The notes beneath the pieces were generated by a model that was not told where the DNA came from, searched no databases, and was given only the letters and a program-made list of their open reading frames with translations. Of a stretch of 64,000 nt of DNA, positions 4,329 through 64,000 are shown piece by piece; within the stretch, counting starts at the first letter, position 1; the number at the start of each line of letters is the position of its first letter. The position numbers and the translations under genes were made by a program. Source of the stretch: Saprospiraceae bacterium (GTDB taxonomy: Bacteria; Bacteroidota; Bacteroidia; Chitinophagales; Saprospiraceae); contig JAHDGU010000005.1 in assembly GCA_020627535.1 (NCBI GenBank), forward strand, positions 1 through 64,000. The letters are read 5' to 3'.

Positions 4329-6785
4329 CTTAAGACTGTAATAATCCAAAAAGTAGACCGCCTTTAGCGTGAATGTATTGAGTTGAGGTGATTGGAGCGT
4401 CCGATCAAGATTGTCAAAGTATCGGGGCAAGAGCTCATTTTGTGCCGTAGCAATAGCATCTTTCCATACGAAGATCAGGTCACTTCCCGGAGCAAAACGC
4501 CAAGTAAGGACCATATCAATGTTCAGCGCATTGAAGTTGATATCGTGTAACTGATTGCCATCCTCATCAGTACCATTGTACAGGATGTCTACCAGTTCTC
4601 CATTTTCACCGAGCTGGTAGACGTCAAGCACATCCACCTGATCCCATATATGGCGCAGTCGGAAGTTGATATTGAGATTTGGGTTTACGCTGTAGTCTAT
4701 AGTGAAGATATTCGAGACAGTAAGACGATCTCGTCGACTCATGTATGATCCACTAGGATCTAGTAAACTATAACCTATGCCCAGGCTGCTGATAGGAACA
4801 AACCCCACATCACGTTTATTCTTGCCGACTGCTGTGCGAAGCTCTACAATCATTCGATCCCATACGCGCAGTCTTGGCTGAAAGGAAAAGTCATAGCCAT
4901 GTCTCCCTTTTTCAAAAAATGTATAATGACTAAAGTCTATATCAATCGCAAAGTCTTTGCTGTAATTGGTAGAGAAAAATCCACCGTTTACGAGTAGACC
5001 TGGATTGGCCAAAAACAAAGAGAAATCTGAGGTGCGTGGCTCAAAATAATCATGAGTACCGAATGGCTCTGTGTACGTAAATCTTCCAAATCCGAGAAAA
5101 TCATTTGTACGATAAAATTGATTCTGGAATAAACTCAAATTAGAATACTGCCAATCACTGCGTAGTGTCTCATACTCAATGCCAAAATTGTATCGCGCAA
5201 AATTGAAATTCCCTTTCGGGTCAAAATTCCGGTAGGCGCCAAACCACTCTATCTCACGATAGTTTCTCAAGCGCTGAAACCCAAGATCATTAATTTCAAA
5301 TTCATTAGCTGTCTCTTCATAGCCAATATCAAAGACAAAGTTTCCACTCGTCTTGCCACCGGATAAGGCAAAGCGGTGACCCAGATCAGTCGTGCCGCTC
5401 CCATATAGCTGACTGATCGCACCAGAGCCCTGGAGTTGCCAAGTGATGGAGCTATCTTGTAGCCTAAACTCAGTCGCAGTCACATTGGCCTCAGGCGCAT
5501 CTCCCTTGCGCAGGACACTTGTGTTGATCAGAGATACGTAGCTATTGTTTTTCAGGTTTTGATCAAGGACAAAAACATTGTAATTCGTAAATGGATTGAT
5601 CACGACTTCTTTGGGCTCATCACCTCCGAGGATTTGCGCCACAGTCTTTTCAGATATCGCATTCAGCACTCCCACACCCAGTCCTTTTTCTGTCCTTCCA
5701 GTAAGCTTGGAGATATTGAGCAAGCGAGAGTTGCTCGGGACATTGGAGAGATATTGTCCCTCAGGGAGTTTTTCTTGAACCTCATTGAGCAAGGCAAGCT
5801 TGCCTCCGATTCTCCGGGTGAAAAATATATTGGCTCGATTAAATAGTTCTATACCCTCTTGAAAAAACTGCCGCTGTTCGTCAAACTGCACCTCAAAAGG
5901 TGATAAATTGAGTACCGCATTATCAGATCTTGCTTGACTAAAATCAGGGATCAGTGTCATATCCAGAGTGAATGCGTCATTGATACCATACTTGATGTCT
6001 GCACCACCCGTGATGGTAAATTCTGTCAAGTTTTTCGGATCCGCATTTTTGTCACTTAGCCAGCTGAAGTTTGTTGCGACAAAAGGGAAGAGTGTCAATC
6101 GGAGCGGAGACTCAATATCCTTGATTCCCGTCCATGTTCCCCACTGATTGATAAAGCCATTGACATTGGGATCGATATATGACCAGTGAGATACTTCACG
6201 GATACTCTCGATATTCCTCGCAAAATTGATCCCCCAGTCCTGCACTTCAGCTTCGGCAAATCTCACAGCATTATAAGGGATAAAGATCTCGACACTCCAG
6301 CCGTCGTCCCGGATGACAGACTTATTTTCCCACACGGCATTCCAGCCACTATCACCGTCATCACTACTGACACGTATATCATATTGCACTCCAGCGACAG
6401 ATGCACCGAAGATGTAGCCATTATTTCCAGCATTGTAGGTATCCAGAGAGATAGAGAACCAATCCGTATTTCTCACCTGATCGCGAGGTGTCATGCGTAC
6501 GATCAGACTATCAGGATCATCGTACATCATCGCATGGACATACACACCTTCGTCCGAGTACAAGACGCGGACTTCAGTGGGTTTAGAGCATGGGTCACCT
6601 GGATTGGGATTATTTTCTATGAAGTTGCTGAGTACTGCAGCATCTTGCCACGCAGGCTCATCAGCATGACCATCGATGTCAAATTTTGCATCAGTCTTTT
6701 GGGCGAAAGCCACGGGTCGATCCTGCTTTTGAGCGCACAGACTTATACAGAGCAGACTAGAGAGAATGAGGTAAAAGAGCTTCAC
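4305..6785 (-). CDS. DUF5916 outer-membrane protein with CBM9-like domain (paralog 1)
   Basis: 826 residues. A signal peptide (MKLFYLILSSLLCISLCAQ) is followed by a CBM9/DOMON-like domain at about residues 35-230 (IDGHADEPAW at the start, WNAVWENKS and a WSVEIFIPYNAVRF strand later). The rest is the DUF5916 beta-barrel region, with PDFSQARSDNAVLNLSPFE and EQRQFFQEGIELF as its hallmark, and an aromatic end typical of outer-membrane barrels. It probably sits in the outer membrane and binds or helps take up carbohydrate or another polymer; the substrate is unknown. A GTG at 6785 is the start, with a near-consensus box (GAACTTTG) 4 nt before it. A close paralog lies at 47789-50164. Confidence 0.85.
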   Translation of the reverse strand: MKLFYLILSSLLCISLCAQKQDRPVAFAQKTDAKFDIDGHADEPAWQDAAVLSNFIENNPNPGDPCSKPTEVRVLYSDEGVYVHAMMYDDPDSLIVRMTPRDQVRNTDWFSISLDTYNAGNNGYIFGASVAGVQYDIRVSSDDGDSGWNAVWENKSVIRDDGWSVEIFIPYNAVRFAEAEVQDWGINFARNIESIREVSHWSYIDPNVNGFINQWGTWTGIKDIESPLRLTLFPFVATNFSWLSDKNADPKNLTEFTITGGADIKYGINDAFTLDMTLIPDFSQARSDNAVLNLSPFEVQFDEQRQFFQEGIELFNRANIFFTRRIGGKLALLNEVQEKLPEGQYLSNVPSNSRLLNISKLTGRTEKGLGVGVLNAISEKTVAQILGGDEPKEVVINPFTNYNVFVLDQNLKNNSYVSLINTSVLRKGDAPEANVTATEFRLQDSSITWQLQGSGAISQLYGSGTTDLGHRFALSGGKTSGNFVFDIGYEETANEFEINDLGFQRLRNYREIEWFGAYRNFDPKGNFNFARYNFGIEYETLRSDWQYSNLSLFQNQFYRTNDFLGFGRFTYTEPFGTHDYFEPRTSDFSLFLANPGLLVNGGFFSTNYSKDFAIDIDFSHYTFFEKGRHGYDFSFQPRLRVWDRMIVELRTAVGKNKRDVGFVPISSLGIGYSLLDPSGSYMSRRDRLTVSNIFTIDYSVNPNLNINFRLRHIWDQVDVLDVYQLGENGELVDILYNGTDEDGNQLHDINFNALNIDMVLTWRFAPGSDLIFVWKDAIATAQNELLPRYFDNLDRTLQSPQLNTFTLKAVYFLDYYSLKKKDNSTS

Positions 6786-6874: not shown

Positions 6875-7291
6875 TTAAAGCCGATTCCATGTCTGCGTGC
6901 GATAAAGACCCGTCCAGTGTTTGCCACGGATATAGAGCACATCGGGCTCTTCACTTTCTATCCATGACACCAGGCGATATTCAGCACCCTTCTCTGGATC
7001 AAGGATCTTGCCCTTCCATACAGCGCCAGACTTCTTCAGATCCTCGATGATGATCAGCCCTAGCACCGGCTGATTGTACTTATCGCCCTTGCACTTCTCG
7101 CACAGAGCATCTGGCCGATCTGTGAGGATCTTGGTCACCTTTCCATACATCACGCCATTTTCCTCATAGATTTCGACCCAGGATTTGTCTTCCCCAGTTT
7201 CATCATCGGTGGTTTTCCATTGTCCTAGAGGGCTTTGGGCTATCAGGCTTCCGCCAAAAAGTGCCGCTACACAGAGTGCTATCAGACGCAT
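6875..7291 (-). CDS. DUF2147 exported protein
   Basis: This 138-residue protein has a signal peptide ([19 protein letters not shown]) followed by a DUF2147 domain: [20 protein letters not shown] at residues 20-39, GVMYGKV, a CEKCKGD turn, and [12 protein letters not shown] near residue 115. DUF2147 proteins are small periplasmic calycin-like barrels of unknown ligand. The CxxC pair is common in the family. The signal-peptide codons contain one copy of the window's iterated sequence (7246-7261). It is divergent from odhB with 131 bp between the starts. Confidence 0.85.
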
Positions 7292-7422: not shown

Positions 7423-8646
7423 ATGAGTGTAGTAGAGATGCGCGTACCGACCATCGGGGAGTCAATCACGGAAGTCACCCTCAGCCAGTGGCTGGTAGAG
7501 GATGGCGGTCTCGTCAATCTTGATGATCCGATCTGTGAGTTTGAATCAGATAAGGCAACTCTCGAGTTTCCGGCCGAGGCACAAGGTAAGCTCATATATG
7601 TAGCATCTGAAGGTGACGATCTTGAGATCGGAGCATTGGTCGCCAAGATTGATACCAGTGTGGCAGTCACCGACAGCAAGCCTGCTGAGGATACGGCTTC
7701 CGCCAAAAAGTCTGAAGCGCCAGCGGCAAGTCCTGCAGCGCAGCCTACAGCATCGGACTCGCATGCGAGCGGTCATCCATCTCCTGCTGCGGCCAAGGAC
7801 ATGCGCGAAAAAGGTCTTTCAGCTAGCGACGTGACAGGCACTGGTAAAGGTGGACGAATCACTCAGCAAGATGTCAAGTCTGCAGAGAAGAAGCCTGCAC
7901 CAGTAGCTGCGCCAACGGCAAGTGCACCGGCTATAGATCCTACCAAGAGAGGGGAAAGAGTCGTGAAGATGAGCCGCATGAGACGTACCATCGCCAAGCG
8001 CCTCGTCTCTGCCAAGAATAATACAGCCATGCTCACCACCTTCAATGAGGTGGACCTGACCAATGTCATGGCACTGCGGAAAAAATATCAAGAAGAGTTC
8101 GTCAATAAATACGGCATCAAACTGGGATTCATGTCCATTTTCGCGAAAGCGTGTGCAGCAGCACTCATGGAAATGCCAGATGTCAATGCCTTCATTGACG
8201 GTAACAATATCATCTACCACGACTATGTCGATATATCAGTCGCCATATCTACGCCCAATGGCCTAGTTGTACCACCGATCCGCAATGTAGAGAGCATGGG
8301 CTTCCATGATATCGAGCAAGAGATCAAGCGTCTCGCGGGCAAAGCCAGAGAGGGATCACTGAGCTTGGATGAGATGACTGGAGGTACGTTCACCATCACC
8401 AATGGTGGCATCTTTGGATCTATGCTTAGCACACCCATACTCAATGAGCCTCAGTCGGCGATCCTTGGCATGCACAATATCGTACAAAGGCCTGTGGCAG
8501 TTGACGGTAAAGTAGAGATCAGACCGATGATGTATCTGGCTCTTAGCTACGACCATCGGATCATCGATGGCAGCACTTCAGTGACCTTCTTGGTCAAGGT
8601 GATCGAGTATCTCAAAGATCCTGTGAGACTGCTCATCAAGGCCTAG
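7423..8646 (+). CDS. odhB: 2-oxoglutarate dehydrogenase E2 (dihydrolipoyl succinyltransferase)
   Basis: 407 residues from the ATG at 7423. The frame stays open upstream to 7261 but the family N-terminus ([17 protein letters not shown]) fixes this start. Domains in order: lipoyl domain (about 1-78) with lipoylated Lys in ESDKATLEF; Ala/Pro-rich linker; E1/E3-binding domain (about 115-150, [13 protein letters not shown]); and the acyltransferase domain with the catalytic SYDHRIIDG near residue 378. It transfers succinyl from lipoamide to CoA in the TCA cycle. The E1 gene is not beside it, which is unusual as odhA and odhB are often adjacent. It could serve another 2-oxo acid complex, but TIGESI and the catalytic domain favour OdhB. 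Confidence 0.88.
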
Positions 8647-9182: not shown

Positions 9183-9625
9183 TCGACTTCTACCACGTCT
9201 ACGAGAGCATACATCAGGCGATTGACGTCCTCAGCATTGAGGACTAGGCGCCCCTTGATCGTGATAGGATCTGCTGTATACTTGATTGGTTCGAGGGCAG
9301 TGACCTCGATGACTGTCTCTGGTCCCGCTCCACCGCAGAAGAAACAGAGATTATAAGGAAAGGCGGAGAAGATGAACTCCGTATGACTTTTGTACCCTTC
9401 TGTCGGGATAATGTAGCCCTTCATCTCGATCTCTTGGCCTTCCAGAGCCTTTACCTCTTCACTAAAGACAGGCATATCGATCTTGAAGCCTAGGAGCTCA
9501 TTGTACTCCTTGGTATAAGTGATCTTGGCCAGCGTCTTCCATGAACTCGAGTTGATACCATCCTGTGCATGTCCGATGAGGAGGCTTCCGCCAAAAAGAA
9601 GGGCGATCGTCAGTAGCTTTTTCAT
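9179..9625 (-). CDS. Exported CFFCG protein, DUF3299-like (second of a tandem pair)
   Basis: 148 residues with a signal peptide (MKKLLTIALLFGGSLLIGHAQ). The core reads ALEGQEIEMKGYIIP, then FSAFPYNLCFFCGGAGPET and a V-E-V strand. This order (W-x-x-L near the start, a 'G-x-x-[IV]-x-x-x-G-[YF]-x-[IV]-P' strand, then a Cys-rich turn) resembles DUF3299 periplasmic proteins. The neighbouring gene encodes a protein with the same pattern, one nt upstream, so the pair arose by tandem duplication. It follows an ABC transporter whose permease has a histidine-rich loop, which suggests a periplasmic metal-handling role; this is inference. The DUF3299 assignment is from memory of the motif. Confidence 0.65.
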   Translation of the reverse strand: MKKLLTIALLFGGSLLIGHAQDGINSSSWKTLAKITYTKEYNELLGFKIDMPVFSEEVKALEGQEIEMKGYIIPTEGYKSHTEFIFSAFPYNLCFFCGGAGPETVIEVTALEPIKYTADPITIKGRLVLNAEDVNRLMYALVDVVEVD

Positions 9626-10178: not shown

Positions 10179-11549
10179 CTATCCCTCACTCAAAGTAGAG
10201 TGGATGTCCGTCTTATAAGCCTGCCATGCAGGAATGACACTGGCGACCAAGCCGATCAACAAGGCAATCAAACCCATCCAAGCTTCTGCCGGTAGAAATT
10301 CCCAAGCACTCAAGCTATAGCGAAACTGCTCGCTGATCCTGGAGGCGAATGCCCAAGTACCGATGTGCGCCAGAAGCAGGCCGATGACAAATCCGAGAGC
10401 TGCTACCAAGAGACCTTCGAGTACGATCAACAAGAATAATCGACTCCGTCCTGCACCCATGACTCTCATCAGGGAAAGCTCATATTTTCGGTCCTTGAGG
10501 CTACTGAGCAGAGAGAAGAAGATGCTGAGGCCACTGACGATCGCTATGAGTATGGCAATAGCCCTCAATGCTTCTGTGCCTGATCCCATCATAGAGTACA
10601 CTCGTGAAATCTCGTAGGGAGGTGAAGCGGCCTGCATGTCAGTGTTTTCATTGATGGAGCGCGGCATGCTCATCGTCTGGAAATTGTTGTTCTTATATCT
10701 GATGAGCAGGGCAGTGATTTCCTCTTCAGGGTGATCTAAGAGCTGCGCATTGTTCACAGTTCCAAAATCGCTCGCATCTACTTCTACAGTGGTGTGTACA
10801 TGCGCACCATGATCATGATCATGGTGATCGTGTCCTGAGTGATCATGTCCTGAGTGATCATGATCTTCATGAGCCATACTATCACTGGCATGAGCCTCAG
10901 CTTCATGGTCATCGTCATGGTCATGATCATGGACACTCCAGACGCTGCTTGTATTTGTCAGGATTACTTGGTCTAGCACAGAGCCAGTTCCCTTCATGAT
11001 GCCCACCACGGTAAATGGCGTATGATGATCGTGTACCAGATCGGAGTTGTCGTCAAAGCCATGACTGCTCATAAACTGGTCACCTACATGGATGTGAAGC
11101 TTTTTGGCGACAGCCGCTCCGACGACGACCTCAAGATCCTCAGTCCACCAACGACCTTGAGCAAGCTCTCCGTCATACAGACGAGCATACTCGTGGGTGG
11201 TCCCGATGATGCGATAGGTCTTGTAACTATCTCCGATCGATGTAGGCACGGCCATTTCGATGAGAGGATGCTTGGGATTGAGAAATGGTGACACCTCTTT
11301 GATCGTGACATTTCCGGTAGGTGCATCGACATGATACATATTGCATAGGATCATCTGCATGGGGCTTCCTTTTGCCCCAATCACCAAGTCAATATCCGCC
11401 AGATTTCGATCAAAATTTTTGGTGAGCTGGTTGTTGACGAGCAGCAGTACCGTGATGAGCCCTATCCCAAGAGAAAACAAGATCAGACTCAAGAGTGCCG
11501 AGAGTGGTCTAGCCCACAGATTTTTCCATGCCAGTCGGATCCAACTCAT
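10179..11549 (-). CDS. FtsX/LolE-type ABC permease with histidine-rich periplasmic loop
   Basis: This 456-residue protein has a membrane helix at about 20-40, a large periplasmic domain (about 41-325) and three C-terminal helices (about 330-350, 375-400 and 420-445) around the conserved SSLKDRKYELSLMRVMGAG segment of FtsX-family permeases. What stands out is residues 207-252, where 17 His alternate with Asp, Gly and Ser (HDHDHDDDHE, GHDHSGHDHHDHDHG). Such loops bind Zn, Ni or Co in other proteins. Further HDHH residues occur near 173. The gene overlaps the ATPase gene by 4 nt, so they form one transporter. The family moves lipoproteins or drives periplasmic enzymes rather than importing ions, so a metal-sensing or metal-loading export role is possible. 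Confidence 0.85.
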   Translation of the reverse strand: MSWIRLAWKNLWARPLSALLSLILFSLGIGLITVLLLVNNQLTKNFDRNLADIDLVIGAKGSPMQMILCNMYHVDAPTGNVTIKEVSPFLNPKHPLIEMAVPTSIGDSYKTYRIIGTTHEYARLYDGELAQGRWWTEDLEVVVGAAVAKKLHIHVGDQFMSSHGFDDNSDLVHDHHTPFTVVGIMKGTGSVLDQVILTNTSSVWSVHDHDHDDDHEAEAHASDSMAHEDHDHSGHDHSGHDHHDHDHGAHVHTTVEVDASDFGTVNNAQLLDHPEEEITALLIRYKNNNFQTMSMPRSINENTDMQAASPPYEISRVYSMMGSGTEALRAIAILIAIVSGLSIFFSLLSSLKDRKYELSLMRVMGAGRSRLFLLIVLEGLLVAALGFVIGLLLAHIGTWAFASRISEQFRYSLSAWEFLPAEAWMGLIALLIGLVASVIPAWQAYKTDIHSTLSEG

Positions 11550-12181
11550 GAGTTCAATCTGATTTGATGAGAAAATCTGCTCGTGAGTCGATTGTCATGT
11601 GTGACGACGATCAGGCTTGCGCCAATCTTCTCTGCTTCATTGCTGATGAGATTGATGACTGCCTCACAATTGGCATCATCCAGAGCCGATGTTGGCTCAT
11701 CCGCCAAGATGAGTTTTGGTCTATGGATCAAGCCTCGAATGATTGAGACTCTTTGTTTCTCACCTTGCGAGAGCTGATGCATCTTGCGAGCCTTTTTGGC
11801 CGAAAGGCCTACAAGATCAAGCATCTGATCGATCAAGTCATCATCTTCTGAGACGCCGGCTAGCTTCTGGGCCAAAGAGAGATTTTCGCCCACCGTAAGC
11901 GCTCGAACAAAATGAGGTACCTGAAAAATCAATCCGATATGTCGACCACGAAAACTGTCGAGCTGTGTCTCACTCATACCGTACATATCTGTCCCACCTA
12001 GACGGACACTGCCAGATTGAGGCCTCAGGAGACCAGCCATGAGATGCAGCAGTGTCGTTTTTCCAGATCCTGACTGTCCAAGCAACAAGGCTTGTTGCCC
12101 AGCCTCCAAGGCGATGTCAGGAAATCTCAGTGCCGATCCACCTGCATAAGAAAACTGTATGTCGCTAGTGCTTAGATTCAT
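11546..12181 (-). CDS. LolD/MacB-type ABC ATPase
   Basis: 211 residues. Walker A is GQSGSGKTTL near residues 34-43, the signature is LSQGEKQRVSI near 137, Walker B is LILADEPTSALD near 157, and the switch His is VVTHD near 194. This is the MacB/LolD branch that pairs with FtsX-type permeases, and the partner gene overlaps it by 4 nt. It would power the permease from the cytoplasmic side. It begins 4 nt after the stop codon of the ROK kinase gene, so all share one transcript. Confidence 0.9.
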   Translation of the reverse strand: MNLSTSDIQFSYAGGSALRFPDIALEAGQQALLLGQSGSGKTTLLHLMAGLLRPQSGSVRLGGTDMYGMSETQLDSFRGRHIGLIFQVPHFVRALTVGENLSLAQKLAGVSEDDDLIDQMLDLVGLSAKKARKMHQLSQGEKQRVSIIRGLIHRPKLILADEPTSALDDANCEAVINLISNEAEKIGASLIVVTHDNRLTSRFSHQIRLNS

Positions 12182-17204: not shown

Positions 17205-20200
17205 ATGGCCTATAGATCGTATAGCAAATTAGACCTACCTAGCATCGACAAGGAGATCCTCCAGTTTTGGGAAGATCAAGATGTCTTTCAGCGCAGTGTG
17301 GAGCAACGTGATGTTGAGAATTCATTCGTCTTTTATGAAGGCCCTCCTTCTGCCAATGGTAAGCCTGGTATTCACCATGTGATGGCACGTACCGTCAAGG
17401 ATCTTTTCTGCAGATATCACAGCATGAAAGGTCAGCGCGTAGAGCGCAAAGGTGGTTGGGACACGCATGGTCTTCCGATCGAGCTGAGTGTAGAGAAAGA
17501 GCTCGGCATCACCAAGGAGGATATTGGCACCAAGATCACTGTCGAGGAATACAATGTGAAGTGCCGCGAGACGGTCATGAGATACAAAGATCTTTGGGAC
17601 TCGCTGACGCGAAAAATGGGCTATTGGGTAGATCTTGAAAATCCGTACATCACCTTTGACAATCACTATATCGAGTCGGTCTGGCACCTGCTGCACAAGC
17701 TCTATGATCAAGACTTGCTCTACAAGGGCTATACGATTCAGCCTTATAGTCCGGCAGCTGGTACTGGCCTCAGTACCCATGAGCTCAATCAGCCGGGCTG
17801 CTACAAAGAGGTCAAAGACACCAGCATCGTCGCACAGTTTGAAGTGACGAAGAATCCAAAGTCACAGTTTCTGTACGACGACGCTTCAGAAGATGAGGTG
17901 TTCATCCTGGCATGGACGACCACCCCATGGACACTTCCGTCCAATACCGCACTGTCCATGGGTCCGAAGATCGACTATGTGATGGTTGACACCTTCAATC
18001 CATACACCAAGCAGAGAGCGAATCTCATTTTGGCAAAAGCCTTGCTCTCCAAGTGGTTCAAAGCGGAGCAATGGGAAGCTGACTTTGATGCATTTGACGG
18101 AAGTCAGAAACTGATTCCCGTGCGCCAGATCGCAGAGTACAAAGGAGCGCAGTTTGAGGGAATCGAATACGTGCAGCTACTGAAGTATGGTATACCCGAA
18201 GATGGAGATGCTTTCAAAGTGCTGCTCGGAGATCATGTCACCACAGAAGATGGTACCGGTATCGTGCATACCGCGCCTAGCTTCGGTGCAGATGATATGC
18301 GCGTCGGTAAGAAGTATGGTATGGGCTCTCTGACCTTAGTGGACAAGACTGGGAAGTTTGTCGATGCGGTCACAGATTTTGCTGGCCGCTACGTCAAAAA
18401 CTATAAGGATGAAGAGGACTATGTATCCGTAGATGTGGATATTTCGGTAAAGCTCAAGCTCGAGAATCGTGCCTTCAATATCCAGAAATATGAGCATAAC
18501 TACCCGCATTGCTGGAGGACAGATAAGCCAGTGCTATACTATCCTTTGGACAGTTGGTTTGTGAAGACTACAGCTCGTAAGGAGCGTCTCATTGAGCTCA
18601 ATAAGACCATCAACTGGAAGCCAGCTCACACGGGGGAGAAACGCTTTGGCAATTGGCTTGAGAATCTCCAAGATTGGAACTTGAGTCGATCCAGATTTTG
18701 GGGAATTCCACTACCGATCTGGCGCACGGCTGATGGTGAAGAAGAACTCTGTATCGGCTCGATTGAGCAGCTCGGAACAGAGATCGCCAAGGCCAATGCA
18801 GCCCTTGGTCTAGACCAGGATGTGCCAGAAGATCTGCACAAGCCATATATAGATCGTGTAGTGCTCGTCAGTCCATCGGGAAAAGAGATGAAGCGCGAGT
18901 CAGATCTCATCGATGTGTGGTTTGATAGCGGAAGTATGCCTTATGCGCAGTGGCATTATCCATTTGAAAATCAAGATAAATTCAAGGCGAATTATCCTGC
19001 GGACTTCATCGCAGAAGGTGTAGATCAGACGCGGGGTTGGTTCTTCACGCTCCATGCCATCGCGACCTTGGCATTTGATCAAGTAGCCTTCAAGAATGTC
19101 GTGAGCAATGGCCTTGTACAAGACAAGCATGGTCGCAAGATGAGCAAGCGTTTGGGCAATGCCGTGGAGCCATTTGAGACATTGGACAAATATGGTGTCG
19201 ATGCCACGAGATGGTACATGATGAGCAATGCTGCTCCATGGGAAAATCTCAAGTTTGATCTCGAGGGTATCGTCGAGGTGCAGCGCAAGTTTCTCGGCAC
19301 TTTGTTCTACACTTATTCCTTTTACTCGCTCTATGCCAATATTGATGAGTTTGTGAATAAAGAGGAGCAGGTGGCTTTCGCCAAAAGGCCTGAAATCGAT
19401 CGATGGATCTTATCAAGTCTGCAGCAACTGGTCAAGAAGGTTGATGACTACTATGCGGACTACGACGTGACGCCGGCTTGCCGAGAGATCCAGTCCTTTG
19501 TCATCGATCAGTTGAGCAACTGGTATGTGAGACTATGTCGAAGAAGATTCTGGAAAGGTGACTACACAGAAGATAAAATCTCCGCCTACCAGACACTCTA
19601 CACATGTCTAGAAACTGTAGCACAGTTAATGGCACCTGTGGCGCCGTTCTTCGGTGATTGGTTGTACAAGAATCTCGTCGAGAGTGATGGCACTGCGAGT
19701 GAGCGATCCGTACATCTCACGGACTACCCCAGTGTCCATGAGGACTGGATCGACGAGAATCTCGAGCGCCGCATGGACAAGGCACAACGCATCTCTTCCT
19801 TGGTCTTGTCCCTGCGCAAGGGAGAAAACATCCGGGTGAGACAACCACTCCGCAAGATCCTTGTGCCCGTACTCGATAAGACATATGAGCAAGACGTAAA
19901 GCTTGTGGAAGATCTCATCAAGAGCGAAGTGAATGTCAAGCAGATCGAGTATGTCGATGACTCCTCTGGTGTGATACAGAAGCAAATCAAGCCCAACTTC
20001 AAAGTACTCGGCAAGCGCCTTGGGGGAGATATGAAGGCTGGAAATCAGCTGATCTCTGCCATGGATCAAGATGCTATCCGTCAATTTGAGCAGTCGGGCA
20101 CTCATGCCTTGCAGATTGAGGATCGCAGCTACGAGCTCACGCTAGATGATGTCCAGATCAGCTCCAAGGATATCCCTGGATGGTCCGTCGCATCTGATGC

Positions 20201-20588: not shown

Positions 20589-20953
20589 TACTGCCCCAAC
20601 TTCAGACCTAGCCAGATACCTCCGAGACATATGACGACACTCAGAAGCACATATGTCAATGCCAGTACCCACTGACCTTGCTCTATGAGACGAAAATTCT
20701 CTAGGCTGAAAGTCGAAAAAGTCGATAAACCACCACACAGTCCTACCATGGCAAAAAGCACCCACTCTTGATCGAGGGCACTTTTGCGCGAAAGCGCCCA
20801 TAAAAAACCCAAGAGAATGCAGCTCAACAAGTTGGCTGTAAAGGTGTGCCATGGGATTTGCTCAGGACTCATCTTGATCCAGATCGATAGCAAGTAGCGC
20901 AAGATCGATCCGAGTCCACCACCAAGAAATATGAGCAAGATCGATTTGGTCAT
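20588..20953 (-). CDS. crcB: Fluoride channel CrcB/Fluc
   Basis: 121 residues with four membrane helices. GGGLGSILRYLLS at about 11-23, the TFTANLLSC Asn-containing segment near 38, and GLCGGLSTFSTFSLE near 74-88 are the Fluc hallmarks; the Phe and Ser of the last block line the pore. The channel lets fluoride leave the cell. I start at the ATG at 20953, which fits family length; the frame remains open 18 codons upstream. That ATG overlaps the stop of the upstream transferase gene by 4 nt. No fluoride riboswitch was seen. Confidence 0.92.
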   Translation of the reverse strand: MTKSILLIFLGGGLGSILRYLLSIWIKMSPEQIPWHTFTANLLSCILLGFLWALSRKSALDQEWVLFAMVGLCGGLSTFSTFSLENFRLIEQGQWVLALTYVLLSVVICLGGIWLGLKLGQ

Positions 20954-22002
20954 GGCGAAGTGGTTTTGCTGCGACGGGCGAGAAGATGAAGTAGTACGGT
21001 GATACACACACTGATGGCAATCAAGATGTATAGCAGAGATCGAGCACCGAGCTGGTGCAGGACTATGAATACGACTGAGAGTAGAAGACTAACCAAGCTC
21101 AACAGGATTGCCGTCTGACGGTGAGACAATCCGCTCTGCACCAATATGTGGTGAATGTGGTTTTGATCGGGATGTAGAGGTGACTTGCCTTGCAGGATAC
21201 GATAGATGAAGACCCTGAGAGTGTCCAAGAGTGGGAGCAGCAATATCCCAGCAGCCACTGTAGGTACACCATCGATCTTGAGGGGGCTTGCGGCTAGACC
21301 ATGGTTGATCTCGATGAACTCTATGGCTTGGATTGCGCAGATGACGCCTATGAAGAGTGATCCTGTATCTCCCATGAAGATGCGCGCCGGTGTCCAGTTG
21401 AATTTCAAAAACGCGATGATCGCACCGATCAAGGATGCTGACATGATAGCCAGTTCGATCTCCTCCACACGATAAAACCAGTAGCCAAAGGTCCCCAAGA
21501 TGACGATCGAGATACAGCCGAGCAAGCCGTCAATCCCATCGATAAGATTGAAGCTATTGGTAATCACCAATATCGTAAAGGCGCTGAGCGCTAGGCTCAT
21601 TCCATAGGACAAATCCCAGATTCCTAGTATGCCGTAGAGGCTGGTGAGTCTGATACCAGCGAGATGAGCTAGGATCATGGCGGATAAGATCTGTGCCGCA
21701 AGTTTGATCCAAGGAGATACTGGATCAAGATCATCTTTGGCACCGACCAGAAAGAGGATGATCAAGGCGCCCAATATGTACTGGATATCGCCAAAGGCTG
21801 TGTAGGGTGTCCAGATGATGATACTCAAGACTACACCCGCTACGATCGCGATACCACCAAGGGTAGGTATGACCTCAATGTGCGACTTGCGAGCATCAGG
21901 GCGATCAAATAAGCCATATTTCTCAGCAAATCGTATGAGACGTGGGATGATGAGCAGGCTTACGCCAAAAGAAGTCAAGAAGGCCAGCACGAGCTCAGAC
22001 AT
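20950..22002 (-). CDS. Undecaprenyl-phosphate sugar-1-phosphate transferase (WecA/MraY family)
   Basis: 350 residues, about eleven helices. Family signatures include KSHIEVIPTLGGIAI near 39-53, VGAKDDLDPVSPW near 87, NSFNLIDGIDGLLG near 149, FMGDTGSLF near 210 and HPDQNHIHHILV near 280. It moves a sugar-1-phosphate, most likely GlcNAc-1-P, from a UDP-sugar to undecaprenyl phosphate on the inner face of the membrane, the first step of surface polysaccharide assembly. The HIHH loop favours WecA over MraY. The gene faces uppS, which makes the lipid carrier, across a short divergent promoter region. Confidence 0.9.
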   Translation of the reverse strand: MSELVLAFLTSFGVSLLIIPRLIRFAEKYGLFDRPDARKSHIEVIPTLGGIAIVAGVVLSIIIWTPYTAFGDIQYILGALIILFLVGAKDDLDPVSPWIKLAAQILSAMILAHLAGIRLTSLYGILGIWDLSYGMSLALSAFTILVITNSFNLIDGIDGLLGCISIVILGTFGYWFYRVEEIELAIMSASLIGAIIAFLKFNWTPARIFMGDTGSLFIGVICAIQAIEFIEINHGLAASPLKIDGVPTVAAGILLLPLLDTLRVFIYRILQGKSPLHPDQNHIHHILVQSGLSHRQTAILLSLVSLLLSVVFIVLHQLGARSLLYILIAISVCITVLLHLLARRSKTTSP

Positions 22003-22109: not shown

Positions 22110-22841
22110 GTGAGTGTAGATACCACCAAAGCGGCGATAGACCCAGGCAAGTTACCTCAGCATATTGCTGTCATCATGGATGGTAATGGTCGGTGGGCCA
22201 AGCAAAAGGGGAAGCCGAGAGTCTTTGGCCACAAGAATGGTGTGGAATCTGTCCGCCAGATCACCGAGGCCGCGGCAGAGCTTGGTGTGCCCTATCTGAG
22301 TTTGTATGCCTTCTCCACCGAAAACTGGTCTCGGCCGGCACTTGAGGTCAATGCACTGATGAGTCTGCTCGTCGCGACCATCAAGAAAGAGATAGAAACG
22401 CTCCAGAAGAATAATATCAGGCTTCAAGCGATAGGTGATCTGAGTAGACTTCCGTCAAAAACGCATCAGGCTCTGCTGTCCGCCATAGAGGAGACCAAGG
22501 CCAACACGCGGATGACACTGGTCCTTGCGCTCAACTACAGTGGAAAATGGGATATCACACAAGCCGTCAATAAACTGCGTGGGGCAAGTTCCGAGATTAC
22601 TCAGGATGATCTGGCTGGAGCCTTGAGTACCGCCGGCATGCCAGACCCTGAGTTGATGATTCGTACGAGTGGAGAGGTCCGCATCAGCAATTTTTTCCTT
22701 TGGCAATTGGCCTATGGTGAGTTTTACTTCACCGATGTGCTCTGGCCAGACTTTCGCAAGCAGCACTTCTACCAGGCCATACTCGATTTTCAAACCCGTC
22801 AGCGCAGATTTGGCAAGACTGGGGAACAGCTTACGAGTTAA
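22110..22841 (+). CDS. uppS: Isoprenyl transferase (undecaprenyl diphosphate synthase)
   Basis: 243 residues from the GTG at 22110. The hallmark HIAVIMDGNGRWAKQKGKPR is at about 20-40, FGHKNGVESVR follows, then YLSLYAFSTENWSRP near 75-89, and PDPELMIRTSGEVRISNFFLWQLAYGEFYF near 190. It condenses isopentenyl units onto farnesyl diphosphate to make the C55 lipid carrier used for peptidoglycan and surface sugars. The frame is open to an ATG at 22065, but family alignment and the -7 box at 22097 favour the later GTG. In Bacteroidota uppS usually runs straight into bamA; here a MITE-like insertion separates them. Confidence 0.93.
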   Translation: MSVDTTKAAIDPGKLPQHIAVIMDGNGRWAKQKGKPRVFGHKNGVESVRQITEAAAELGVPYLSLYAFSTENWSRPALEVNALMSLLVATIKKEIETLQKNNIRLQAIGDLSRLPSKTHQALLSAIEETKANTRMTLVLALNYSGKWDITQAVNKLRGASSEITQDDLAGALSTAGMPDPELMIRTSGEVRISNFFLWQLAYGEFYFTDVLWPDFRKQHFYQAILDFQTRQRRFGKTGEQLTS

Positions 22842-33765: not shown

Positions 33766-33830
33766 ATACATAACGACTCTGTCTGAGTATGGCCTCGCAT
33801 ACATGACAAAATTGTGAGTATCTTTATGCT

Positions 33831-44964: not shown

Positions 44965-45390
44965 ATGGAAAACCTGAAGAAGATAGAGCACATCGGTATC
45001 GCGGTACATGACATCGAGGAGAGCAATGAGCTCTTTGAGAAGCTACTTGGTATCGCGCCGTACAAGCAAGAGCTCGTCGAGAGTGAGCATGTGTTGACTT
45101 CCTTCTTCCGCTCTGGGCCCAATAAGATCGAGCTGCTGCAGGCGACACATGAGGATAGTGCCATCGCCAAGTATCTTGAGCGCAAGAAGCCAGGCATCCA
45201 TCACATCGCCTTTGCTGTAGATGATATATACGCAGAGATGGATCGCTTACGCGAAAATGGCTTTGTACTCCTCAATGAAAAGCCAAAGCGAGGTGCAGAT
45301 AATAAACTCGTCTGCTTTGTACATCCCAAGACTGCCAACGGTGTCTTGGTAGAGCTCTGCCAAGAGATGAGTGAGTCAGAGAAGGTCTAG
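44965..45390 (+). CDS. mce: Methylmalonyl-CoA epimerase
   Basis: 141 residues from the ATG at 44965. This is a VOC-fold protein with KIEHIGIAVHDIEESNELFEKLLG at 6-29, SFFRSGPNKIELLQ near 45-58, KPGIHHIAFAVDDIYAEMDRL near 73-93, and KTANGVLVELCQ near the end. The metal ligands His9, Glu56, His79 and Glu131 of the family appear present (position numbers approximate). It swaps the 2R and 2S forms of methylmalonyl-CoA between propionate and succinate metabolism. The mutase genes are not in the window. Confidence 0.92.
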   Translation: MENLKKIEHIGIAVHDIEESNELFEKLLGIAPYKQELVESEHVLTSFFRSGPNKIELLQATHEDSAIAKYLERKKPGIHHIAFAVDDIYAEMDRLRENGFVLLNEKPKRGADNKLVCFVHPKTANGVLVELCQEMSESEKV

Positions 45391-51590: not shown

Positions 51591-52928
51591 TCATTGTGTT
51601 ATTTTCACCAACTCCACTCGACGATTAAGCGCTCTCCCCGTCGCCGTGGCATTATCAGCGACTGGTTTTGACTCTCCCAATCCTCGTACTACGACTTGAC
51701 GGTCATCGACTCGATAGATGTCAAGAAGTCGCTTTTTAATGGCTTGACTTCTCAAAAGAGATAAAGACATATTGTACTCATCTGATCCTTGAGAGTCTGT
51801 ATGACCCTGGACTTCGATCTTCATTGTTGGATCTGAGAGAAGCATATTGGCAATTTGCTCAATTAGTGAGTAGGACTCTGACTTGATTACGCTCTTGTCT
51901 GCGTCGAAGTAGATTCCATAAAGTCTGATATGACCTTTTTCTTGAATCGTTTTTTTGATGCTTGATTCTTCAATGGAAGATCCCACAGAAAAACTCTCAG
52001 CAGATAAAAGCTCTGGTCCATTGTCTGCATATGCCCAGCGGACTTCATACTCACCTTTTTCACTGGGACTGATCATTTCTAATTGGCCGCCTTTGGGGTT
52101 ATCTACATAAGCATAGTCGATATACCCGCGGAGTCCAGCTTTCGTCCCTTTATGAAATATACCAAACCAGGATCGAGTACTGAGATTTTCGTGACCAGTG
52201 TATTGTATGACGAATGGGGTAGATGGATCAATTTTTTTCTCCGGAAGGGTAAATTGGATTCCATCTAGAGACGGCATTCCCACGCGAAATGGAACCACTT
52301 TCAACAGCGGGCCAGAATTATTAGCAAAAAATCTTAACTCGTAATCACCAGATTCTGGTGCGCGGAGAAGTAGACGGCCGTCTTTGAAGTTTCCATAATA
52401 TGCATAGGAAATATAGCTTGATGTGGATGCCTTGTCTTCACCGGCTCTGAATATCCCAAGCCAGGCCTTATCATTGAGCTCTATGTCTGTTATGAGGTGA
52501 ACGGTTATGTTTTGACTGGCCTCGACATTTTGTTCTTCGATGTATAGTTCAATTTCTTCGGGAAATATTGGTTTGACTTGGAAAGAGGCGCTGGCTACTT
52601 GCTTGCCATAATTACTGTCCAGCACCCGGAACTCATATTCACCACCGAGAGCCGGAGCATCAAATTCTAGTGCCTCATGAATTTTTTGACGGACATATTG
52701 ATAAGTTGTGTATTCAGAATGAGAGCCAGCTGGAATTCCTTTTGGAAAAAGTCCAATCCATGCAGTTTCACTCAGTGGAGATGTTGTTGAGTATTTTAGC
52801 TCAATGGCATTGCCAGTCCTGTAGATGCTGGTATCCAGCTGTACTTGGACCATTTGGGCGAAAGCCTCACTGTGCATCCCAGAGGTCCAGCTAAGTATGA
52901 AAAGAAATTGAATCAGTGACTTGGTCAT
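51591..52928 (-). CDS. OmpA-family protein with three tandem W-x-G-[IL]-F beta domains
   Basis: 445 residues. After a signal peptide (to about residue 25) come three related beta-sandwich units of about 98 residues. The landmark AWIGLFPKG, AWLGIFRAG and SWFGIFHKG sit at Trp57, Trp156 and Trp254, each followed by a Y-x-x-Y strand and a GEYE[FV]R-like strand. The C-terminus (about 335-445) is an OmpA peptidoglycan-binding domain, with FDADKSVIKSES, VQGHTDSQGSDEYN and LNRRVELV. It would anchor to peptidoglycan in the periplasm. The beta units look like Ig-type domains; I do not know a named family. A variant of the iterated 14-mer encodes the signal-peptide cleavage region (EAFAQM). Confidence 0.8.
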   Translation of the reverse strand: MTKSLIQFLFILSWTSGMHSEAFAQMVQVQLDTSIYRTGNAIELKYSTTSPLSETAWIGLFPKGIPAGSHSEYTTYQYVRQKIHEALEFDAPALGGEYEFRVLDSNYGKQVASASFQVKPIFPEEIELYIEEQNVEASQNITVHLITDIELNDKAWLGIFRAGEDKASTSSYISYAYYGNFKDGRLLLRAPESGDYELRFFANNSGPLLKVVPFRVGMPSLDGIQFTLPEKKIDPSTPFVIQYTGHENLSTRSWFGIFHKGTKAGLRGYIDYAYVDNPKGGQLEMISPSEKGEYEVRWAYADNGPELLSAESFSVGSSIEESSIKKTIQEKGHIRLYGIYFDADKSVIKSESYSLIEQIANMLLSDPTMKIEVQGHTDSQGSDEYNMSLSLLRSQAIKKRLLDIYRVDDRQVVVRGLGESKPVADNATATGRALNRRVELVKITQ

Positions 52929-52992: not shown

Positions 52993-55047
<2,055 letters not shown>

Positions 55048-56101: not shown

Positions 56102-56650
56102 ATGACGAAAGCGCTTTCTTTTTTGTTACCACTTTTCTTTTTAGTTTCTTGTCAAAAAGAAGCTGTTTCTGATGTGACAGTTCCTCAGGAAAGAGATGTT
56201 TATGCCGTCCTGAAAGAACTAGGCGTAGAACTCGGAAGTGTCAAAGCTCCCATTGCCAACTATGCCAATGCTATCAAGACGGGTAATCTAATTTTTCTTG
56301 CCGGGAAAGGCAGTCGAGATGAAAATGGAGAACTCATCACTGGAAAATTGGGGCAAGATCTTTCTGTGGATGAAGGATACAGAGCGGCACGCTCGATCGC
56401 AATTTCACAATTGGAAGTGCTACACAATGAATTGGGCGATCTCAACCGGGTCACTCGTCTTGTAAAAGTCACTGGCATGGTTAATGCCACAGATGACTTT
56501 ACACAGCACCCGGAGGTAATCAATGGATTCAGCGATTTTATGGTCGAAGTATTTGGGGATAGAGGTAAGCATGCTCGTGCGGCGGTTGGGATGAGTTCTC
56601 TTCCTCGAAACCTTGCAGTAGAGATAGATTTGATTGTAGAGTTTCTATGA
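56102..56650 (+). CDS. RidA family lipoprotein
   Basis: 182 residues from the ATG at 56102; another start at 56090 overlaps the previous gene. The signal MTKALSFLLPLFFLVSC has a lipobox (LVS-C17). The RidA domain is about 45-182: FLAGKGSRDENGELI, then GYRAARSIAISQLEVLHNELGDLNRVTRLVKVTGMVNATDDF, and HARAAVGMSSLPRNLAVEIDLIVEF with Arg and Glu in place. RidA proteins hydrolyse reactive imines in the cytoplasm; an exported, lipid-anchored one is unusual. It lies between a propeller and a pyrophosphatase gene, both also exported, and overlaps the latter by 4 nt. Confidence 0.87.
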   Translation: MTKALSFLLPLFFLVSCQKEAVSDVTVPQERDVYAVLKELGVELGSVKAPIANYANAIKTGNLIFLAGKGSRDENGELITGKLGQDLSVDEGYRAARSIAISQLEVLHNELGDLNRVTRLVKVTGMVNATDDFTQHPEVINGFSDFMVEVFGDRGKHARAAVGMSSLPRNLAVEIDLIVEFL

Positions 56651-57285
56651 GGCTGTCGCCAAAATATGCGTTTTATTCATTAGTCTTCGCACTGTCATTC
56701 ATCACATGTGAGAATGGTGTGTCGACGAAGAGTAACTCTCGAGATTTTCTTCATTTGGTGAATGATATTCCGACTTGGACTGAGGATAGCTTGGTCAATG
56801 TTGTGATTGAAATTCCTGCTGGCACAAATCTGAAGTATGAGGTCAACAAGGAGTCTGGGAGGCTTGATATAGAACAGATCCATAGCCAGCCGAGGACAGT
56901 GAACTATCTTCCATATCCTGTGAATTATGGAATGATACCAGGCACGCTCTTGGCCAAAGAAGACGGTGGTGACGGAGATCCACTGGATGTCATGGTTTTT
57001 GGTTCAGCAATGGATACGGCAAGTATTGCAAGTGTGCGAGTCATAGGCTTACTGCGTTTACTTGACGGCGGTGAGCAAGATGACAAGTTGCTAGCGATTT
57101 TGCCAAAAGCACATCTTAGTTCGATCGAAGATCTGGATGATTTTCGAGAGATGTATCCAGGGGCTCTTAATATCATCGAGATATGGTTTATCAACTACAA
57201 GGGCCCAGATCAAATGAAGAGTCAGGGATGGTCTCGTGCAGACGAAGCGGGTGAATTGCTTCTTAAAGCCAATGCTTCCTATTAG
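56647..57285 (+). CDS. Exported family I inorganic pyrophosphatase
   Basis: 212 residues. An N-terminal hydrophobic signal (YAFYSLVFALSFITC, residues 7-21) ends in a Cys, though the lipobox is not canonical. The enzyme domain runs about 35-205, with VVIEIPAGTNLKYEV, NYLPYPVNYGMIPGTL, and the metal site DGGDGDPLDVMVFG, which fits the PROSITE D-x-D-P-x-D pattern. IWFINYKGPDQMKSQGW is the conserved end. The catalytic residues look intact, so it should split diphosphate, but outside the cytoplasm. The usual soluble enzyme has no signal. Its start overlaps the RidA stop (ATGA). Confidence 0.88.
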   Translation: MRLSPKYAFYSLVFALSFITCENGVSTKSNSRDFLHLVNDIPTWTEDSLVNVVIEIPAGTNLKYEVNKESGRLDIEQIHSQPRTVNYLPYPVNYGMIPGTLLAKEDGGDGDPLDVMVFGSAMDTASIASVRVIGLLRLLDGGEQDDKLLAILPKAHLSSIEDLDDFREMYPGALNIIEIWFINYKGPDQMKSQGWSRADEAGELLLKANASY

Positions 57286-59915: not shown

Positions 59916-60724
59916 TATTTTCTTCTCTTAGGCTTAAAAGTCTTGCGAGAGGTTCCACTTTGACCTTGACGCGGTCTCGTCTTTTTAATTCTAGGAGCTC
60001 TGGCTTTTGGCGGCAGCTCTATTTTTTTCATCTCAGATTTGAGCTGATCGACTTCTTGACTTGTGAGGTTGCGCCATTTTCCTAGAGCTAACTTCCCGAG
60101 ATGGATATTTACTACACGCACGCGCTGAAGAGATGTCACTTTGCAACCGAGCTCATTGCACATTCTTCTGATCTGTCGATTGAGACCTTGCTTGAGAATA
60201 ATGCGAAAAGTGTTTTTATTGATTTTCTCGACTTCACAGGGCAGCGTCACACGATCTAAAATCTGCACACCAGAAGACATTTTCTTGACAAAGTCCTTAT
60301 TGATGCCTCGGTCGACTGAGACGATATATTCTTTTTCATGCTGGTACCGGGCATGTATCAGCATATTGGCAAAATCGCCATCATTCGTCAAGAGGATGAG
60401 ACCCTCAGAATTCTTGTCGAGGCGTCCTACAGGAAATATCCGATTCTCGTGACCGATGAAGTCGATGATATTATTCGCCACATTTGGGTTCGCTGTAGTC
60501 TCTACACCTTTGGGCTTATTCAGTGCGATATAGATCTTCTTCTTGGTCTGCATCAGCGCTTCGCCATCAATGGTCACTACATCACCAGTTATGACGCGAT
60601 TGCCCTTTTGGGCGACAGCCCCGTTGATCTCCACACGACCCTGCTCGATGATCGTATCTGCCGCACGACGGGAGCAAAATCCTGTCTGGCTGATGAATTT
60701 ATTGAGAGAAATACCCTTTTCCAC
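59915..60724 (-). CDS. RluF/RsuA-family pseudouridine synthase
   Basis: 269 residues from a GTG at 60724. An S4 RNA-binding domain (1-60, SLNKFISQTGFCSRRAADTIIEQGRVEING) precedes the catalytic domain, with GRLDKNSEGLILLTNDG near 97-113, where Asp is the nucleophile. KEYIVSV and GLNRQIRRMCNELGCKVTSLQRVRV are also present. The basic C-terminal tail (about 240-269, KARAPRIKKTRPRQG) is longer than usual. It converts uridine to pseudouridine in rRNA; the site is likely 23S U2604/U2605-like for RluF but cannot be told from sequence. A -7 box lies 4 nt before the GTG. Confidence 0.92.
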   Translation of the reverse strand: MEKGISLNKFISQTGFCSRRAADTIIEQGRVEINGAVAQKGNRVITGDVVTIDGEALMQTKKKIYIALNKPKGVETTANPNVANNIIDFIGHENRIFPVGRLDKNSEGLILLTNDGDFANMLIHARYQHEKEYIVSVDRGINKDFVKKMSSGVQILDRVTLPCEVEKINKNTFRIILKQGLNRQIRRMCNELGCKVTSLQRVRVVNIHLGKLALGKWRNLTSQEVDQLKSEMKKIELPPKARAPRIKKTRPRQGQSGTSRKTFKPKRRK

Positions 60725-60742: not shown

Positions 60743-60746
60743 TCGC

Positions 60747-62178: not shown

Positions 62179-64000
62179 ATGAAGAGTGTATGGACGATTT
62201 CTTTTTTTCTTGGTTTTGTGTTGAGCGCTTTCGCGCAAATGGGTCTCGAAGAAAGCAACTACGTCTTCGATGACAGCAGCGTCCCACGTATTGATATTCT
62301 CATTGATCAAGATTCTCTTGATGAAATTCTAGATCCTGCAAATTGGTGGTCTGATCATGAGTATCCAGCCACTTTCATATTTACCAAGGATGGTGATTCC
62401 TATGAAGTAAACCAGATAGGTTTTCGCTTACGCGGAAATACATCTAGAGCTGCCGCCAAAAAGTCTTTTAAAATTTCGATCAATAGTTTTGAGACGAAGA
62501 AGTTTTTTGGTCTAGAAAAACTGAATCTCAATGGAGAGAAGAATGATCCTTCTCTGATGCGATCTAAACTTTGTTGGGACTTATTTTCTCAGATGGGTGT
62601 GCCATCAGCTCGAGCCAATCACGTAGAGCTCTACATCAATGGTGAGTACAAAGGCCTCTATTTAAATACAGAGCACATCGACGAAGAATTTGTGCGAAAG
62701 CGCTTCCCTAGCAATAGTGGAAACCTATACAAATGTCTCTATCCAGCTGACCTTGCATACAAAGGAGAAGACCCCGATCTCTACAAAGAGGAGTTCAATG
62801 GGCGTCGAGCCTACGAATTAAAAATCAATAATGATATTGACGACTATACGGATATTGCCAGCTTGATTTCTATCCTTGATCAAGTTCCAAGTGATGCCAA
62901 AGACTGCCTTGTGGATCGGTGGATAGATGTTGATTTGTATATCTCCGCATTGGCAGTAGATATTGTGACAGGAAATTGGGATGGTCCTCTCAACAAGAAC
63001 AATTATTACCTCTACTTCGACACAGACCGGAACAATTTTGTTTATTTCCCTTTTGATCTAGATAATACTTTTGGCATTGACTGGTTTGGTGTTGACTGGG
63101 CCACTGCAAATATTTATCGTTGGTTTGACAATGCGAGAGAAGATCGACCGCTGCAGGATCATATTTTGTCCGTACCAGAGTATCGGAGCCAATTGGGCTG
63201 GGAGGTCGATCGAGTGTCGGATATCTTGCGAGCAGAGTCATATGATGCGGAGCTTGAGGGTTTTAGAGATTTACTTAGAAGTGCCAGAGAGGCTGACCCC
63301 TATGCCTCACTCGACTACGGTTGGGATCTAGATCACTATGACCTCTCTTTTGATATGTCAATTGGGGATCACGTGAAGTATGGCTTGCGAAATTATATAT
63401 CTACTCGGCTAGAAGCCAATCGCATACAGATTGACAATTACAATCCTCTTCCGATCATCCAGCGATTACGTCAGACTCAATCCGCAGAGAGGATTACTTG
63501 GGAGATAAGCTTGAGGTCTTTGCTCCCTATAGATAGTATCATGGTGAACTATACTGATAGGGACAACAATACATATAGAGAAAAGGTGGATTTTTCTAGT
63601 CAAGACATGTGGAGATTTGAGACGACACTTTTATCGCCAGGCAGAGTGGAGTATAGCTTCGAGATTTATGAGTCAGATGGTGATTATCGCCCTTATCCTA
63701 GATGTGGCGAGTATGCGACTGATTTCGGAAGTATTACTGATGATCCTTTGGTTGTCAACGAGTTTATGGCAGACAATGAAGAGTATGTAGCAGATCAGGC
63801 GGGAGACTTTGATGACTGGATTGAACTTTATAATACGAGTGAGAATACGATCTTCTTGGCCAACTATTTCTTGACGGATGATCCAGGAGAGCCAGATAAG
63901 TGGGCACTACCATTGATTCCACTAGCTCCAGACAGTTATCTCATCATATGGGCAGATGACGATCTAGAGCAAGATGGATACCACGCCAACTTCAAATTGT
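62179..64000 (+). CDS. CotH-like kinase protein with lamin-tail domain (cut by the window edge)
   Basis: The frame from ATG 62179 is open to the right edge, 607 codons so far. Signal peptide MKSVWTISFFLGFVLSAFAQ. The CotH domain runs about 35-400: VPRIDILIDQDSLDEIL, GFRLRGNTSRAAAKKSFKIS with the nucleotide-binding Arg/Lys, LNLNGEKNDPSLMRSKL, ELYINGEYKGLYLNTEHID, and the metal-binding FPFDLDNTFGIDWF. A beta domain follows (about 420-510), then a lamin-tail domain from about 515 (PLVVNEFMADN, DWIELYNTSENTIFLANYFLTDD). Exported CotH-LTD proteins are common in this phylum and usually end in a type IX sorting domain, here beyond the edge. A near-consensus box (TATTTTCG) lies 4 nt before the ATG. 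Confidence 0.88.
   Translation, partial: MKSVWTISFFLGFVLSAFAQMGLEESNYVFDDSSVPRIDILIDQDSLDEILDPANWWSDHEYPATFIFTKDGDSYEVNQIGFRLRGNTSRAAAKKSFKISINSFETKKFFGLEKLNLNGEKNDPSLMRSKLCWDLFSQMGVPSARANHVELYINGEYKGLYLNTEHIDEEFVRKRFPSNSGNLYKCLYPADLAYKGEDPDLYKEEFNGRRAYELKINNDIDDYTDIASLISILDQVPSDAKDCLVDRWIDVDLYISALAVDIVTGNWDGPLNKNNYYLYFDTDRNNFVYFPFDLDNTFGIDWFGVDWATANIYRWFDNAREDRPLQDHILSVPEYRSQLGWEVDRVSDILRAESYDAELEGFRDLLRSAREADPYASLDYGWDLDHYDLSFDMSIGDHVKYGLRNYISTRLEANRIQIDNYNPLPIIQRLRQTQSAERITWEISLRSLLPIDSIMVNYTDRDNNTYREKVDFSSQDMWRFETTLLSPGRVEYSFEIYESDGDYRPYPRCGEYATDFGSITDDPLVVNEFMADNEEYVADQAGDFDDWIELYNTSENTIFLANYFLTDDPGEPDKWALPLIPLAPDSYLIIWADDDLEQDGYHANFKL

Follow-up and report, generated by a model that had tools for sequence, protein, structure and literature searches.

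Dispersed mini-hairpin tags with strand-specific spacing in the genome of a Saprospiraceae bacterium: a putative signal for DNA exchange

The window analysed in this work is a stretch of 64,000 nucleotides from a Saprospiraceae bacterium (assembly GCA_020627535.1, contig JAHDGU010000005.1, positions 1 to 64,000), whose 4.09-Mb genome, in 25 contigs, is denoted G000. Within its genes, including those coding for IleRS and PheT, as well as outside called genes, the window carries numerous copies of a short hairpin-forming repeat, referred to here as the hairpin tag. The original prediction, made from the letters of the window alone, had described this repeat as a 14-mer, GGCTTTCGCCAAAA, with five exact copies, and these were found at the places and strands given (19373+, 28135+, 33752-, 40891+ and 43596-). 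It had counted eleven additional near-copies; 15 were found within two mismatches. The resulting 20 matches at up to two mismatches compare with 0.35 expected from a dinucleotide shuffle. The three copies of GCGCTTTCGCGCAAA (20783-, 33479+ and 62225+) were also recovered, but they do not represent a separate related form, being the same element with one base pair swapped. Similarly, the proposed consensus GGCTKYCGCCMAAAAG describes a genuine repeat but only one face of a covarying hairpin, the form first noticed being the most frequent one of a broader element, and the hairpin definition excludes two of the variants listed with it, at 18028 (loop TTTT) and 54132 (unpaired T).

On the forward strand of the window, hairpin tags are located at 7245..7259 and 9582..9596 (both AGGCTTCCGCCAAAA), 7694..7708 (CGGCTTCCGCCAAAA), 21956..21970 (AGGCTTACGCCAAAA), 22446..22460 (AGACTTCCGTCAAAA, with an A-T inner pair), 54500..54514 (GGCCTGTCGGCAAAA), 56650..56664 (AGGCTGTCGCCAAAA), 62424..62438 (TCGCTTACGCGGAAA, with a weak tail) and, outside called genes, 40890..40904 (CGGCTTTCGCCAAAA). 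Forward-strand tags with a 4-bp stem are found at 17601..17615 (TCGCTGACGCGAAAA), 19372..19386 (TGGCTTTCGCCAAAA, within the IleRS gene), 28134..28148 (TGGCTTTCGCCAAAA), 33479..33493 (GCGCTTTCGCGCAAA, within the PheT gene), 35601..35615 (GGGCTTACGCCCAAA), 45243..45257 (TCGCTTACGCGAAAA) and 62225..62239 (GCGCTTTCGCGCAAA). On the reverse strand, tags are located at 6698..6712 (TGGCTTTCGCCCAAA, 3-bp stem), 8138..8152 (ACGCTTTCGCGAAAA, C-G/G-C swapped stem), 11102..11116 (CGGCTGTCGCCAAAA), 24274..24288 (GCTCTGCCGAGAAAA), 26165..26179 (AGGCTGCCGCCAAAA), 43596..43610 (GGGCTTTCGCCAAAA) and 52853..52867 (AGGCTTTCGCCCAAA), together with two outside called genes at 26739..26753 (AGACTTCCGTCAAAA) and 44441..44455 (AGGCTTGCGCCAAAA). 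Those with a 4-bp stem on this strand are found at 11795..11809 (GGCCTTTCGGCCAAA, inner pairs swapped), 20783..20797 (GCGCTTTCGCGCAAA, outside called genes), 32148..32162 (TGCCTGCCGGCAAAA, within the PheT gene), 33752..33766 (TGGCTTTCGCCAAAA, outside called genes), 39865..39879 (GAGCTTCCGCTCAAA, containing an A-T pair) and 60607..60621 (GGGCTGTCGCCCAAA).

The general form of the tag is 5'-N N N C-T[T/G]NC-G N' N' [A/C] AAA [A/T] G-3', consisting of a stem of 3-4 bp, a tetraloop closed by a C-G pair and an unpaired AAA tail; the opposite strand reads 5'-C[A/T]TTT followed by the stem and a GN[A/C]A loop. Covariation was measured on 460 sites chosen solely for their loop and tail (NNN-C-T[T/G]NC-G-NNN-AAA[A/T]G), pairing not being required. 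The inner pair was Watson-Crick in 447 of the 460 sites (263 expected if the positions were independent; chi-square p = 3e-223), the middle pair in 418 (225 expected; p = 1e-139) and the outer pair in 260 (137 expected; p = 2e-53). All four Watson-Crick pair types were found in the stem, and G-T wobble was nearly absent at the inner and middle positions. The strongest 8-mer, GCTTTCGC/GCGAAAGC, ranked first in 458 kb of the genome and again when 1.655 Mb were examined; the bases on its two sides match each other as pairs (GG..CC, GC..GC, GA..TC etc.). Since the stem letters vary freely but stay complementary, the feature conserved is the hairpin, and the conserved unit of the repeat is a fold and not a fixed sequence.

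The loops observed were TTTC, TGTC, TTCC, TTAC, TTGC, TGCC, TGAC and TGGC, which on the other strand correspond to GN[A/C]A loops with a C-G closing pair, GNGA being absent. A scan of loop lengths showed strong enrichment of one geometry, a perfect 4-bp stem and a 4-base loop followed by AAAWG (310 occurrences, versus 47 with the tail reversed), and no conserved flank was found beyond the AAAWG tail. The predicted folding energy of the tags as single-stranded DNA was between -2.9 and -4.9 kcal/mol. Both GCGAAAGC and c(GNNA)g form exceptionally stable DNA hairpins in vitro. The top 8-mer of the genome is identical to the mini-hairpin d(GCGAAAGC), and the loop grammar of the tags, C-GN[A/C]A-G, lies within the d(cGNNAg) tetraloop class of in vitro biophysics. 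These mini-hairpins differ from the tags in that they are known as a physical motif only, and we know of no report of one serving as a genome-wide signal.

In the whole genome, GGCTTTCGCCAAAA was matched 650 times at up to one mismatch (328 on the forward and 322 on the reverse strand), and the reversed control once (0/1), in agreement with the genome-wide signal that had been proposed from the window. Gene calls were obtained by a simple codon-score method and cover 79% of the sequence. Inside genes, over 1.655 Mb of the genome, synonymous-codon shuffles gave on average 1.0 copy of the exact 14-mer and 13.6 of the generalised hairpin (maximum 20), whereas the real sequence contains 79 and 495, respectively. 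Chance or codon usage as the source of the tags is ruled out by these shuffles, and the earlier claim that protein coding does not explain the copies was borne out. Tags were found in all codon phases and in both orientations to the genes. With pairing required, 658 hairpin sites were counted, versus 3 in the reversed sequence, and the density of about 0.4 per kb extrapolates to about 1,600 tags per genome. A mutational by-product was considered in this connection, namely template-switch repair that perfects near-palindromes into hairpins. Such repair makes stems complementary, but it leaves unexplained the fixed loop, the C-G closing pair, the AAA tail, the ratio of 658 to 3 and the evenness along each strand described below, so that this origin is hardly credible.

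With respect to genes, 272 tags have the same orientation, 208 the opposite one and 157 lie outside called genes; thus, 480 of 637 are within called genes. The strand on which a tag lies did not correlate with GC skew (r -0.008 over 32 blocks). A replication-polarised signal is thereby ruled out, and the check for strand bias relative to replication that the original prediction had proposed showed none. An RNA-level element in mRNAs, such as a GNRA-type hairpin, an attenuator or a protein-binding site, would be in line with the stability of GAAA, GGAA, GTAA and GCAA loops in RNA and with the slight excess of tags in gene orientation. The two orientations are nearly equal in number, however, sites occur outside called genes, GNGA loops are absent, GU wobble is rare and no Rfam match was found in the window, which renders an RNA element extremely improbable. 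As the sites ignore the direction of both transcription and replication and nearly lack G-T wobble, the data point to tags acting at the DNA and not the RNA level.

Tags were spaced more evenly than random, and counts per 20 kb gave a variance/mean of 0.47 over a stretch of 540 kb. Random placement would give about 317 same-strand pairs at distances of 0.5-3 kb, and 198 were counted; no overall depletion was seen for opposite-strand pairs. Adjacent tags were on the same strand in 217 of 643 cases (p 1e-16), and in 34 of 94 cases (p 0.0096) in G001, a sister genome from the same genus. The series on each strand has one tag per about 4.7-5.0 kb. Since same-strand sites repel each other and opposite-strand sites do not, each strand needs its own tag, and a site on one strand is no substitute for that of the other. 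Convergent tag pairs (+ then -) at 100-1000 bp were in mild excess (89 versus 59 expected) on contigs C1, C10 and others of G000, and divergent pairs at this distance showed no excess.

Two alternative functions bear on this spacing. A chromosome maintenance signal, involved in replication priming, segregation or nucleoid folding through hairpins extruded or exposed on one strand, would agree with the even spacing, and phage priming and primosome sites are known to use hairpins. Against it stand the equal use of leading and lagging strands and a patchy presence among genera, which is odd for an essential housekeeping signal; such a role is quite improbable. The second, a Chi-like recombination hotspot, assumes that the tag modulates an AddAB/RecBCD-type helicase-nuclease, each orientation serving one direction of travel. 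Like Chi, which is also read on one strand, the tags are orientation-specific and spaced at the kilobase scale; in each orientation about one is found every 5 kb, with an even distribution that includes coding DNA. Known Chi sites are nevertheless short fixed words without stem covariation and are usually replication-biased, strongly so in E. coli, whereas the tags are not a fixed word and show no such bias. Nor does a Chi-like function give a reason for lineage dialects or for an enrichment of about 36-fold over codon shuffles, and we regard it as unlikely.

The genomes G000 and G001 share 69.5% nucleotide identity over their aligned parts. Two tag sites were identical in both although their flanks were only 58-68% identical. 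At another orthologous site, GCGC-TTTC-GCGC in one genome is replaced by GGGC-TTTC-GCCC in the other, a compensatory double change between flanks of about 61% identity; a second compensatory case requires an alignment gap. Most other sites had no counterpart in the sister genome and, since the alignments there are mostly gap-free, the tags come and go by substitution within existing genes and not by insertion. This comparison bears on mobile hairpins, that is, repetitive extragenic palindromes (REP) moved by a Y1 (RAYT/TnpA-REP) transposase, or attC/IS200-like targets. The layout of a small hairpin with a short unpaired guide is common to the tags, to REP and bacterial interspersed mosaic elements (BIME), and to IS200/605 ends. 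REP/BIME are, however, intergenic and spread by insertion with their transposase, whereas most tags are within genes in all frames, their sister alignments are largely gap-free, no conserved flank extends beyond the tail, and no Y1_Tnp domain (PF01797) was detected in G000. Mobility of this kind is highly improbable.

Within the Saprospiraceae many genera were strongly enriched in the tag and many others were not; the conservation that the original prediction had proposed to examine thus extends to many genera of the family, with dialects. The highest counts in the family were 761 (G100) and 837 (G190) matches to GCTTTCGCNNAAA. The hairpin is common to these genomes and the tail differs, being [A/C]AAA[A/T]G in G000, AAAAC in G100, GAA[T/A/G] in G030 and AAAW in G156 and G029. 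In the Flavobacteriaceae genome G691, 43 hairpins with an RAA tail were found, versus 2 in the control. Relatives at the PheT locus from other Bacteroidota genomes showed no tag enrichment. The palindrome GCTTTCGCGAAAGC, which had been offered as a flavobacterial analogue, is real, with 578 copies in G719 and 408 in G888 (both Flavobacteriaceae genera), none in the reversed control and none in G000. It is evenly spaced, with one copy per 5.5-7.8 kb genome-wide, near the per-strand tag density of G000, and a minimum gap of 1.3 kb among the places listed. CGC-TTTC-GCG-AAA is present simultaneously on the two strands of GCTTTCGCGAAAGC. With the same hairpin and AAA, the palindrome may represent a form of the tag in which the copies for the two strands are fused; it differs in that one self-complementary site serves both strands and in that its stem is fixed.

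Among known systems, the DNA uptake sequences (DUS) of Neisseriaceae, read by ComP, resemble the tags as genome-wide short motifs in coding and non-coding DNA, with dialects and a probable self-marking role, and the uptake signal sequences (USS) of Pasteurellaceae do so in their high density, even spread and location within genes. An ordinary double-stranded word of the DUS/USS type, recognised by ComP or another type IV pilin, would therefore fit density, coding location, even spacing and dialects alike. The DUS is a fixed double-stranded word, however, and the USS has a fixed core with flanking AT tracts and no need of a hairpin, whereas the tags have a covarying stem, a copy for each strand and no such flanks; neither this covariation nor a repulsion confined to tags on the same strand fits such a fixed word. 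A clear type IV pilus ATPase (PilB/PilT-type) is also absent from G000, which is 99.67% complete (best E 6.7e-5, below the cut-off); of the DUS machinery only sub-cut-off T2SSE matches were found, ComP itself not having been searched for. A pilus-linked DUS was rejected, as the presence of the ATPase elsewhere in the family, judged by eye, does not track the motif. Overall, a conventional uptake word is very unlikely. HIP1 of cyanobacteria, which the original prediction had also put forward as an analogue, is likewise a very abundant dispersed short motif, but it is a fixed palindromic octamer without covariation or strand-specific spacing, unlike the covarying stem and asymmetric tail of the tags, and a fixed double-stranded word cannot give covariation or same-strand repulsion. 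The same holds for a methylation motif. Of the three functions first suggested, uptake or recombination is probably the best functional guess.

The reading that we favour, with a probability of about 0.5, is that the tag is read on single-stranded DNA and that tagged DNA is preferred in exchange, most likely in uptake or import by natural transformation. Strand-specific repulsion and the requirement for a hairpin suggest a reading step on single-stranded DNA, and biased DNA transfer is proposed because more than 1,000 coding-compatible, lineage-specific and evenly placed copies resemble the product of DUS/USS systems. A putative protein would recognise the folded hairpin and its tail, either during import through ComEC or later, and tag-bearing DNA would be favoured most likely in transformation, where one strand enters as single-stranded DNA. 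Tagged alleles would then overwrite untagged ones, and tags would spread through genes by biased transfer until each strand carries about one in 5 kb, a distance comparable to the length of an exchanged fragment, while the tail dialects would keep exchange within the lineage. As no clear pilus ATPase is present, the reader here would not be a type IV pilus receptor of the ComP type. In a broader and more tentative form, somewhat short of an even chance, Bacteroidia (Saprospiraceae and some Flavobacteriaceae) would possess a self-recognition code in DNA secondary structure, each strand being marked every ~5 kb by a C-G-closed GN[A/C]A mini-hairpin with a lineage-specific unpaired tail and read as single-stranded DNA in exchange, independently of type IV pili.

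Several points weigh against the exchange reading. To our knowledge, every uptake sequence that has been well studied works by way of type IV pili, whose ATPase is not evident in G000, and both the uptake function in this organism and the reader protein are putative. The competence channel ComEC is present in G000, but it is near-universal in the family (281/298 genomes) and was rejected as a discriminating partner for this reason. Strand alternation was not significant in the small samples from G100, G030, G156 and G691. A 7.6-kb element, present as two identical tandem copies at ~138-153 kb of contig C5 (L049) and containing a tyrosine integrase, a CHC2/Toprim primase and small genes, carries 6 tags (3 per copy), which is the normal density. 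Because this element is tagged at that density, the proposition that foreign DNA lacks tags is weakly supported. Giant Rhs-repeat genes (L049:12364-19929 and L080:2191-10947) contain 0 tags, where the mean density would predict about 3 to 4, and in the site-poor region at C5:150-178 kb no genes other than the giant Rhs-like ones and that for SprA were empty. Genes below 43% GC held 6 tags in 75 genes, a figure confounded by the GC-rich motif itself. One of the giant Rhs-repeat genes encodes a TcdB-middle-like domain.

The uptake and recombination signals known so far consist of fixed words that are read either on double-stranded DNA or as plain sequence. With a fold as the unit that is conserved and a spacing specific to each strand, the hairpin tag would appear to be a type of signal not previously described. 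Neither an uptake sequence from Bacteroidota nor a comparable hairpin signal distributed over a whole genome turned up in a literature search whose scope did not extend to subscription papers and preprints. If the function is uptake, the tag would be a new mode within the uptake-signal idea; a dispersed fold-based signal, carried separately by each strand, would amount to a novel means by which cells label their DNA as self. In the same phylum, Riemerella columbina prefers its own DNA in transformation competition, and k-mer counting in this species gave only A/T-rich words and no clear uptake sequence (PMC7965970). Counts of this kind would miss a tag coded in structure; if such a tag is the signal, this would explain their failure to find uptake sequences in such self-preferring Bacteroidota (PMC7965970).

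Apart from the tags, one of the proteins encoded in the window is a cellulase carrying a Por secretion tail, and for a window protein the nearest named relatives were metagenome-assembled genomes (MAGs) of Saprospiraceae, both consistent with a Bacteroidota organism of the Saprospiraceae type. Low-complexity acidic-codon repeats (GATGAAGATGAGGA / GAGGATGACGAGGA) were observed at 58238-58611 in one open reading frame. Among the relatives, a Flavobacteriaceae genome contains an array (L202:14650-19963 and L203:40-502) resembling clustered regularly interspaced short palindromic repeats (CRISPR), with a 77-bp period and ~77 units (TATCTTCGTGATTAATCGCAAC...TTGTGAATTGCTTTC).

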